Shown: piece after piece, positions 39,669-41,804 of the stretch
How the letters are laid out: each line of letters begins with the position of its first letter
Position numbering within the stretch: the stretch's first letter is position 1
Virus record (IMG/VR): IMGVR_UViG_3300024239_000014
Span: 124,001-188,000 of that record
DNA length: 64,000 bases
Strand: one strand, 5' to 3'
From: a virus
Notes under the pieces: model-generated
What the model saw: the letters and a program-made list of their open reading frames with translations, nothing else
The model's database searches: none
Told to the model about the DNA's origin: nothing
Position numbers and translations under genes: made by a program

Positions 39669-39740
39669 ATTTAGCAAAAAAAAATTCTACCGACGCACGT
39701 CTACCTACAGACCGGAGTCTGGGTTACATGCGTCGGATTA
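39669..39740 (-). terminator. Complex terminator with nested hairpins
   Basis: On the minus strand an outer stem CCGACGCA/TGCGTCGG encloses CAGAC-tccg-GTCTG, which overlaps an alternative GTCT/AGAC pairing. It is followed by TAGAA and a run of nine T. It closes the operon with the AcrIII-1-like gene. Differs from the simple purine-arm hairpins elsewhere. Confidence 0.75.
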
Positions 39741-39750
39741 TAACGGCCTT

Positions 39751-39825
39751 TTACCGGGCCGGGACGGTCGGGTAGTCGCCCTGGCGTACAGGGTCTACCC
39801 GGCGGAGCACTTCATCCCACTCCAT
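39751..39825 (-). CDS. Very small protein (24 codons)
   Basis: ATG with a perfect AAGGAGG seven bases upstream, open for 24 codons (MEWDEVLRRVDPVRQGDYPT, then VPAR). It sits last in the AcrIII-1-like operon, just before the complex terminator, in an otherwise gene-free 310-base stretch (39587-39897). Real expression is likely from the SD; function unknown. Confidence 0.55.
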   Translation of the reverse strand: MEWDEVLRRVDPVRQGDYPTVPAR

Positions 39826-39845
39826 AATTACCTCCTTAGGCTAAA

Positions 39846-39897
39846 GTTAAGAAACACCCCCCGGAATTGTTTTACTAGCCTCCGCGGACTAGGACCC
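39846..39897 (-). promoter_or_regulatory. Structured 5' leader element, copy A
   Basis: Minus strand: a CTAG...GGCTAG hairpin followed by GTAAAACAATTCCGGGG. The same layout, hairpin plus GTAAAAYAATTCYGGGG, precedes the AcrIII-1-like gene (copy B). A likely cis element for promoter, processing or translation control. Confidence 0.5.
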
Positions 39898-40131
39898 TTA
39901 CGCCACGAGGTCGGTGTGCTCTTCCAGAGCTGCGAGTAGGTCAACCAACTTCATGTTGTAACCCACTTCGTTCCGCGTCCATACGGAAAAAACATAGCGC
40001 TCTTCCTCCACCAGCGCAACATCCGTATTCTCCGTCCCGTCTGGTGTGAACATCCGGGATGTCTGCAGGCGGAACAGGAAAGTCCAATCATCCTTGTCAA
40101 ACGTATCGGCGTTGGCTTTAGTGATCAACAT
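39898..40131 (-). CDS. Hypothetical protein, operon partner of AcrIII-1-like gene
   Basis: The ATG at 40131 has AGGAGG upstream; longer readings lack support. The product is 77 residues (MLITKANADTFDKDDWTFLF...): acidic, with a strand-rich middle (YVFSVWTRNEVGYN) and a helical end. Third of four genes in a closed early operon. A counter-defence role is possible by association only. Confidence 0.65.
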   Translation of the reverse strand: MLITKANADTFDKDDWTFLFRLQTSRMFTPDGTENTDVALVEEERYVFSVWTRNEVGYNMKLVDLLAALEEHTDLVA

Positions 40132-40277
40132 GCTGGCCTCCTGGGCTCCGGGGAATTGGTTGGTACACCGTGTTTCTCTGTTCTGTTTCCAAGTCGCCCG
40201 CCACGTGCGGTCACCTGCGCTTTTCAGCAGGTGCAAGACTCAGCCCGACTTTACGGGTAGGTGCTCTGTCGGTCCGC

Positions 40278-40577
40278 TTACTGGCGTTCGATCAGCATCG
40301 CAGTTACACCGATGGCCAGAATTTCTTCTGCGGTGTACTCACGGCCGAACTCCGTGCGACCCATGACTTTAAGGCTCAGAGCCTGGTCATAGCCGTCACA
40401 GACAGAACGATCAGCAGTCGGCTCAATCCCCAGAACCCGCACAGTGGAGTGACCCACGTAGTTCTTAGGATTGTGGGTTTTCACCCACTCCGCAGCTTCC
40501 TCGAGGGAAATGTAGCGCATGGTGTACGCACCTTCCTCGAGCAGCATCGGAGTCGACAGAATGACGTTTCGGGTCAT
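40278..40577 (-). CDS. acrIII-1: AcrIII-1-like (DUF1874) viral ring nuclease
   Basis: A 99-residue protein, AAAGGAAA before the ATG. It follows the DUF1874/STIV B116 pattern end to end: ILSTPML at the start, YISLEEAAEWV, then YVGHSTVRVLG with the conserved His (His43 here). Next come a charged DRSVCDGYDQALSLK strand, GRTEFGRE and TAEEILAIG. In AcrIII-1 this His is catalytic and the dimer degrades cyclic tetra-adenylate, switching off type III CRISPR effector nucleases. The operon has an early-type promoter, as expected for an anti-CRISPR. Recognised by pattern, without a database search. Confidence 0.75.
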   Translation of the reverse strand: MTRNVILSTPMLLEEGAYTMRYISLEEAAEWVKTHNPKNYVGHSTVRVLGIEPTADRSVCDGYDQALSLKVMGRTEFGREYTAEEILAIGVTAMLIERQ

Positions 40578-40602
40578 GTCGCTTTCCTTTGTTGGTTAAT
40601 CT

Positions 40603-40655
40603 TCCTCTTGCGAGGGCCCCAGAATTATTTTACCAGCTTCCGTGGGCTGGGGTGT
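40603..40655 (-). promoter_or_regulatory. Structured 5' leader element, copy B
   Basis: Minus strand: CCCCAGC...GCTGG hairpin then GTAAAATAATTCTGGGG, where CCCCAG could instead pair with CTGGGG. It lies 26-80 bases before the AcrIII-1-like start. Nearly the same as copy A at 39846. Confidence 0.5.
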
Positions 40656-40661
40656 TAGCCT

Positions 40662-41159
40662 TTAGTGGAAAGATGATGGCCCGCGCGACACAAGCTCGCA
40701 GAACATGGTGAAGGCACCATCCTTGGAGAAGAAGATAGGAGAGATAATCTCCTTGATTTTCTCCCCCTTCTCGGTAATCTCGATAATCTCTTCATGCGAA
40801 GACCGGTAAGCGTCCATGCTCTCGAAAAAGGCCTTGAACTTCTCGGTTTCAACAACCGAGAGTTGACCGAGCACCCCACCGGCCAAGGCGGCGACCGCCG
40901 CCAGCTCGGCGTCCATGACAGGGATTGCCTGGAAGGCGATGCACGCCTCCAGGTTATCGGCCAACTCTGGGAACAACTCGCGAGAGCTGTTCACCCACAG
41001 CTTGGCTGCTTCCAAGTCAGAGCTGGTGTACACCAGCTCTTCTGGAACTACCAGCTCACCCATGAAGGGGGTGAGCTTGGCGACGGCGTCATCGCCGTAG
41101 GTGGCGGCGATGGCGGTACGGAGCGCGGCGATGGTGGTAGTGGTGTCGATAGTATTCAT
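40662..41159 (-). CDS. Hypothetical protein, first gene of the AcrIII-1-like operon
   Basis: The ATG at 41159 has GAGGA eight bases upstream. The product has 165 residues, acidic and helical, starting MNTIDTTTTIAALRTAIAAT. It is a paralog of the next upstream gene: YGDDAVAKLTPFMGELVVPE aligns with FGADSIERLAKVLPSLIIPE. First gene after the early promoter at 41224. Confidence 0.7.
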   Translation of the reverse strand: MNTIDTTTTIAALRTAIAATYGDDAVAKLTPFMGELVVPEELVYTSSDLEAAKLWVNSSRELFPELADNLEACIAFQAIPVMDAELAAVAALAGGVLGQLSVVETEKFKAFFESMDAYRSSHEEIIEITEKGEKIKEIISPIFFSKDGAFTMFCELVSRGPSSFH

Positions 41160-41223
41160 GTCGTAATCCTCTTTTTTGTTCACGTTGTGGAAGCGAGTTT
41201 CCAGTGCACTCGAGCTTCCGGCT

Positions 41224-41240
41224 CACCTTAACGATATAGG
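41224..41240 (-). promoter_or_regulatory. Early-type phage promoter
   Basis: Minus strand reads CCTATATCGT-TAAG-GTG, 65 bases upstream of the first gene of the AcrIII-1-like operon, right after a T-run terminator. Confidence 0.75.
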
Positions 41241-41270
41241 TTTGAGATTTTTTGGGATTCGATTTTGATG

Positions 41271-41301
41271 AAAAAAAGAGGAGAGGGAAATCCCTCTCCT
41301 C
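41271..41301 (-). terminator. Rho-independent terminator, minus strand
   Basis: GAGGAGAGGGA-aa-TCCCTCTCCTC with A7 on its left side, so U7 on the minus strand. Ends the unit whose last gene stops at 41315. Confidence 0.85.
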
Positions 41302-41314
41302 CTATACCGTTGCG

Positions 41315-41794
41315 TTAACGGTATTTGCAATGTTTCACGAGGTCGTAATAAGCCATGTCGGTATACATCCCCATGTGGCAGCACAGAAAGTCCGTTTCCG
41401 ATTTAGCGTCACGAGTGACGACGCTGCAGTAAAATCCCGATGACGCCCTTTCTGCGGTTACTCTGACCGCTTGGAAAACGTCACGGTTGTTAGGTGAGTC
41501 CCCGTAGGCGCCGGCAAGTAAATGAGCAGCTGCTTTGACATTATCAATACGACCGTCGTCGTCTACCGCATCCAGTAGATACATCCCCATGAATTCCATC
41601 GCGAGTTCGTCACTACCGGAACGTTCCACACACTCGTCGATTGCATCGATTAACAGCATGCGTTCTACGACCGACAATCGCAATCCTTCCGGGATTATGA
41701 GCGACGGCAGCACCTTCGCTAATCGTTCGATTGAGTCAGCACCAAACTCAGCACGTAACCGCGAATAGAGTCGTTCTCGCAATTGAGCGTTCAT
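41315..41794 (-). CDS. Hypothetical protein, paralog of the 40662 gene
   Basis: The ATG at 41794 (MNAQLRERLYSRLRAEFG) has GAGGGAG upstream. Product 159 residues, helical, acidic; similar to the 165-residue gene over its first ~75 residues. The two copies lie on either side of a terminator/promoter pair, so one copy is read with each operon. Confidence 0.65.
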   Translation of the reverse strand: MNAQLRERLYSRLRAEFGADSIERLAKVLPSLIIPEGLRLSVVERMLLIDAIDECVERSGSDELAMEFMGMYLLDAVDDDGRIDNVKAAAHLLAGAYGDSPNNRDVFQAVRVTAERASSGFYCSVVTRDAKSETDFLCCHMGMYTDMAYYDLVKHCKYR

Positions 41795-41804
41795 ATCTCC
41801 CTCG

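Follow-up and report, generated by a model that had tools for sequence, protein, structure and literature searches.

The nucleus built by some phages blocks DNA-targeting defenses, and phage mRNA stays open to type III CRISPR. The DUF1874/AcrIII-1 family, and its function as a ring nuclease, are already known: members of the AcrIII-1 family are specific for cA4 (PMC7854544, PMC12409355), the H47A variant of SIRV1 gp29 is inactive (PMC7213978), and substitution of the equivalent histidine in Csx1-Crn2 (H495A) abolishes ring-nuclease activity (PMC7293037). Nucleus-forming phages are susceptible to type III CRISPR (PMC7854544; PMC13282480). A 2026 review lists Tad1 as the sole anti-defense protein so far described in jumbo phages (PMC13282480), and our literature search turned up no previous description of AcrIII-1 in nucleus-forming jumbo phages. 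What appears to be novel in the locus described here is thus that DUF1874, here in the form of a divergent member, occurs in jumbo phages that encode chimallin.

The stretch of DNA analyzed (the window) comprises 64,000 nucleotides, positions 124,001 to 188,000 of IMG/VR record IMGVR_UViG_3300024239_000014. A first-pass annotation of the window had assumed a phiKZ-like, nucleus-forming phage, and at the level of sequence this premise holds. The phiKZ-group virion families phrog_3004 and phrog_3222 were both matched (E < 1e-190), and tblastn searches with virion proteins matched 271-272 phiKZ-like records. A relative of chimallin (phiKZ gp54, the nuclear shell) is encoded outside the window at G000:C1:244132-245598 on the minus strand (27% identity, E = 6e-28, 627-aa open frame). 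Given this chimallin relative and the phiKZ-group virion proteins, the phage likely forms a nucleus. In a different contig (G027:C1:112209-114078), the phrog_3222 gene is split over several frames, perhaps because of an assembly error.

Within the window, the minus strand carries, from 41159 to 39751, a run of four consecutive ORFs (165, 99, 77, and 24 codons) with a strong terminator at either end. The first-pass annotation had described a closed unit at 39669-41301 consisting of a T-run terminator, a promoter, four genes, and a complex terminator; we located all of these parts, every one on the minus strand, as follows.

41276..41303, minus strand: intrinsic terminator at the upper border, ending the preceding 160-aa gene (41315-41797); 12-bp stem plus T-run, -22.1 kcal/mol, z = -4.3, none of 200 shuffles equally stable
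41224..41241, minus strand: early-type promoter motif ACCTATATCGTTAAGGTG, with its core ACCTATAT at 41234-41241 (genome-wide recurrence of the core)
40662..41159, minus strand: first operon gene, 165 aa, acidic, function unassigned (no relatives detected)
40617..40633, minus strand: first intergenic repeat, GTAAAATAATTCTGGGG, in the gap separating the 165-codon gene from the 99-codon gene
40278..40577, minus strand: putative DUF1874/AcrIII-1-like ring nuclease gene, 99 aa (profile, conserved residues, predicted fold)
39898..40131, minus strand: third operon gene, 77 aa, function unassigned (AGGAGG Shine-Dalgarno)
39859..39875, minus strand: second intergenic repeat, GTAAAACAATTCCGGGG, in the gap separating the 77-codon gene from the 24-codon gene
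39751..39825, minus strand: fourth operon gene, 24 aa, too short for a family test (AAGGAGG Shine-Dalgarno)
about 39676..39736, minus strand: compound-stem terminator at the lower border; interrupted long stem plus nine T, -30.4 kcal/mol, z = -5.0, none of 200 shuffles equally stable

Shine-Dalgarno-like sequences lie a few nucleotides 5′ of each ATG at normal spacing (in gene order, AGAGGA, AAAGGA, AGGAGG, and AAGGAGG). The window contains exactly two copies of the repeat GTAAAAYAATTCYGGGG, each in an intergenic gap of this operon, and the RNA fold at either copy was no more stable than those of shuffled sequences. Searches that included Pfam, PADLOC, and NCBIfam returned no convincing family match for the 165-, 77-, and 24-codon genes (the last being too short for the test), and no relative of the 165-codon gene was detected in phages, in IMG/VR, or in five related contigs. 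With neither family matches nor relatives to draw on, the joint counter-defense role once suggested for these three genes is possible but unsupported. By eye, the 165-aa gene resembles the 160-aa gene upstream of it, but BLASTP between the two was empty, and paralogy was rejected.

The early-type promoter proposed for the operon is backed by a motif that recurs across the genome. The core ACCTATAT is present in 10 copies in the 249,640-bp record, all 10 on the minus strand, compared with 1 + 2 copies of the reversed pattern that served as a control. Nine of the 10 are intergenic and precede an ORF, several of them immediately behind a T-run terminator, and most copies are embedded in a common context, TYTCARACCTATATY...GTG.

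G000:C1 27118, 31537, 67083, 105544, 130151, 158069, 165234, 189330, and 224579, all minus strand: the nine intergenic ACCTATAT-centered copies
6150, 34068, and 41233, minus strand: window positions of the three of these nine copies that lie within the window

In jumbo phages that have RNA polymerases of their own, a single AT-rich motif of ~10 nt, specific to each phage, precedes the early operons (PMC7598289). The ACCTATAT-centered motif is likely the early-promoter consensus of the present phage. From its recurrence across the genome, together with the early-promoter logic of PMC7598289, we infer with good reason that the operon is transcribed early.

To place the second gene, which had been assigned to the DUF1874/AcrIII-1 pattern at first pass, we relied on profile searches (PF08960, hhalign, and a custom HMM), all of which find DUF1874. 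The only Pfam match of the 99-aa protein was PF08960 (STIV B116-like, that is, DUF1874; E = 5.4e-5, 23.7 bits), which spans residues 12-90 of the protein and positions 11-98 of the 101 in the profile. Because this score lies below the curated Pfam gathering cutoff for PF08960 (26 bits), independent tests of membership were run. A custom HMM built from 51 DUF1874 members, with the window protein left out, scored the 99-aa protein at 30.8 bits (E = 2.8e-7), whereas the top score among 20,000 shuffled versions of its sequence was 11.6 bits and no other window ORF scored above 7.5 bits. Alignment of the 99-aa protein with 16 family members by hhalign gave 94.5% (E = 7e-8). No phage record was matched by tblastn at E <= 0.01; at E <= 10 (50,697 phage records), there were five matches, each of them to the DUF1874 gene of a Fusobacterium phage (E = 0.07, ~31% identity over 95%). 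No close relative came up when viral and genome collections were scanned by motif, and PADLOC and NCBIfam returned no match for this protein. The independent tests agree in pointing to a very divergent member of DUF1874 (PF08960; AcrIII-1/Crn2). Ring nucleases as divergent as this would score under the Pfam cutoff and so be overlooked by routine annotation.

Conservation was concentrated in the residues expected of the family. In an alignment of 37 DUF1874 members, G42, H43, R57, and R74 (numbered as in the 99-aa protein) were the only invariant positions, and the 99-aa protein has all four; a second alignment, of another 16 members, yielded the same invariant set. These residues align to G46, H47, R66, and R85 of SIRV1 gp29. 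The conserved GH motif reported at first pass (G42-H43) is present where the second helix begins, and its H43 lines up with the catalytic His of family members. Two near-invariant residues of gp29, N8 and E88, are replaced in the 99-aa protein by Ser8 and Phe77, with a Glu one position before Phe77. These two positions do not define membership, since both lie outside the absolutely invariant columns of the family. The helix that follows the catalytic His is ~5 residues shorter in the 99-aa protein, and in the tree the protein joins near bacterial YddF-type proteins on a very long terminal branch (4.23 changes per column). Given the long branch, the two replacements, and the shorter helix, its activity or specificity could have drifted. 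Identity to its relatives is 15-34%, and the residues kept at this distance are exactly the family-invariant ones, which argues for selection on catalysis.

The predicted structure is consistent with this assignment. AlphaFold2, guided by an alignment of DUF1874 members, produced a monomer model with a pLDDT of 95.6 and a pTM of 0.86; the single-sequence prediction for the 99-aa protein had a pLDDT of 49. Foldseek searches of the PDB with the model returned 16 matches at probability 1.00, and 16/16 were DUF1874 proteins (structures matched: AFV3-109, STIV B116, SIRV1 gp29 [6scf], 2x4i, and Csx1-Crn2), with the next fold (DHFR) at a probability of <= 0.10. TM scores against 2j6b, 2j85, 6scf, 2x4i, and 8y7f ranged from 0.63 to 0.79. 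The monomer is predicted to fold like SIRV1 gp29 and related proteins, in keeping with the structural comparison proposed at first pass. Because the family alignment steers, and may impose, the fold (the pLDDT without it was 49), the model supports the DUF1874 fold and is no independent proof of it.

The 99-aa protein resembles AcrIII-1 (SIRV1 gp29; PDB 6scf and 2x4i) in its predicted fold, its GH motif, its equivalents of R66 and R85, its full-length alignment, and its origin from a viral gene. Unlike SIRV1 gp29, to which it is ~15% identical, it carries Ser in place of N8 and Phe in place of E88, has a shorter post-His helix, and is encoded by a bacterial jumbo phage of the likely nucleus-forming kind. 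Its closest sequences are DUF1874 proteins of the YddF type (Fusobacterium phage FNU1 QBJ04180 and L086 from Clostridia; 31-34% identity), with which it has in common a short N-terminal half and the plan ISLEEA...GH...R...R...EEI..IG. It differs from them in its branch of 4.23 changes per column and in the PEG after the second Arg, which reads EFG. The fold of the ring-nuclease domain of Crn2 and Csx1-Crn2 (PDB 8y6z, 8y7f, and 8y7g) is also shared according to the model; whereas those proteins are a host CRISPR-associated regulator or a fusion to Csx1, the 99-aa protein is a stand-alone phage gene.

We think it probable that the operon encodes a divergent DUF1874 ring nuclease that is made early, acts as a homodimer, most likely cuts cA4, and counters type III CRISPR on behalf of a nucleus-forming, phiKZ-like phage. 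On this reading, the operon would yield an early transcript, probably made by the virion RNA polymerase that the phage injects; a host type III (Cas10) complex would recognize phage mRNA in the cytoplasm and make cyclic oligoadenylate (cOA); the homodimer of the 99-aa protein would bind the cOA, most likely cA4; and His43 would cut the bound ring, so that cOA-activated effectors stay off. A cA4 nuclease had been presented at first pass as what such a phage would need. NucC is a cA3-activated nuclease. The claim is in line with the action of type III CRISPR on nucleus-forming phages, but the type III defense demonstrated against one of them (Serratia/PCH45) works via NucC (PMC13282480). Since AcrIII-1 is cA4 specific, whether the phage gains from the enzyme would depend on its host having a cA4 effector.

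The reliance of that defense on NucC also favors a different reading, in which the DUF1874 fold was kept and the ligand changed, the protein binding or cutting cA3, cA6, or a CBASS ring, or serving as a sponge, rather than acting as a cA4 nuclease. The long branch, the loss of the N8 and E88 equivalents, and the shorter helix would fit such a change, and phiKZ itself has a cyclic-nucleotide sponge, Tad1 (PMC13282480). However, the protein retains the catalytic His together with the two invariant Arg and the known family members are cA4 specific (PMC7854544, PMC12409355), and we regard a changed ligand as unlikely. The same sequence divergence and residue changes might instead mark a DUF1874 relative that has degenerated or been repurposed and has no ring-nuclease activity; it could, for instance, have the role implied by older annotations, which label some archaeal-virus homologues "DNA binding protein." This, too, seems unlikely to us, as the residues kept at 15-34% identity are precisely the family-invariant ones and the ORF is intact and has a good Shine-Dalgarno sequence. 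That the 99-aa protein is a small early orphan protein outside the family, similar to it by chance, would accord with the subthreshold Pfam score and with motif scans that found no close relative in viral and genome collections but is highly improbable in view of the shuffle test, the profile-profile match, the specificity of the tblastn matches, the conserved catalytic residues, and the fold.

To determine how far DUF1874 extends among comparable phages, we gathered related phiKZ-like IMG/VR contigs by a phrog_3222 scan and searched 39 records for PF08960. Two of the 39 scored above the cutoff, at 42-45 bits (IMGVR 3300045125_000085, here L068, and 3300027985_001318, here L069), and both contigs are chimallin positive. 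Like the window protein, the L068 and L069 proteins belong to this Pfam family, are encoded by chimallin phages, and have the catalytic His and both Arg. Unlike it, they share the NAFS...PRLPEG subtype of SIRV/STIV and Thermoanaerobacterium, and they form a clade apart from it. Because of this difference in subtype and clade, the window copy and the L068/L069 copies likely represent separate acquisitions. A single origin of the jumbo-phage copies was rejected: the window copy falls outside the supported set that holds L068 and L069 (98/92), and its own placement, on a long branch, is unsure. The frequency of 2/39 compares with 36/28,114 phage genomes (PMC12409355; Fisher p = 0.0013), a comparison that is indicative only because detection methods and genome sizes differ.

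Among cultured phiKZ-like phages, tblastn with FNU1 and L068 queries, a search insensitive to very divergent forms, gave no DUF1874 among the matches listed. Foldseek returned weak matches (probability 0.72-0.99, TM ~0.55) to BFVD entries J7KCD4 (Erwinia phage phiEaH2) and A0A1B2IEJ3 and A0A1B2IEC3 (Erwinia phage Kwan), all uncharacterized proteins of cultured phiKZ-like phages. We do not claim the phiEaH2 and Kwan proteins as ring nucleases, since sequence gives no support: the candidate phiEaH2 CDS of 145 aa (the sole annotated one of that length found) showed no sequence similarity (hhalign probability 0.1), and the phiEaH2 ORFs did not match the DUF1874 profile.

If the reading of the 99-aa protein as an anti-type III ring nuclease is correct, the presence of such an enzyme in at least three chimallin-encoding phages, in two subtypes, would amount to a second, complementary layer of protection against type III, the host's last effective CRISPR type. 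Whether nucleus-forming phages counter type III signaling can now be tested directly. A bolder proposal is that nucleus-forming jumbo phages repeatedly acquire DUF1874 to shield their mRNA and that the present copy (short helix, N8/E88) was remodeled toward cA3 or CBASS rings; we hold this to be quite unlikely.

DUF1874 genes were also seen in other settings. The jumbo-size contig L070 (IMGVR_UViG_3300028887_000070, 231,846 bp) has a canonical DUF1874 gene, without phrog_3222 or chimallin matches, so predicted ring nucleases are present in other large phages too. On Vibrio aerogenes plasmid pLMG19650 (L019), the DUF1874 gene adjoins a long cas1 gene and is probably a Crn2 in a CRISPR locus.
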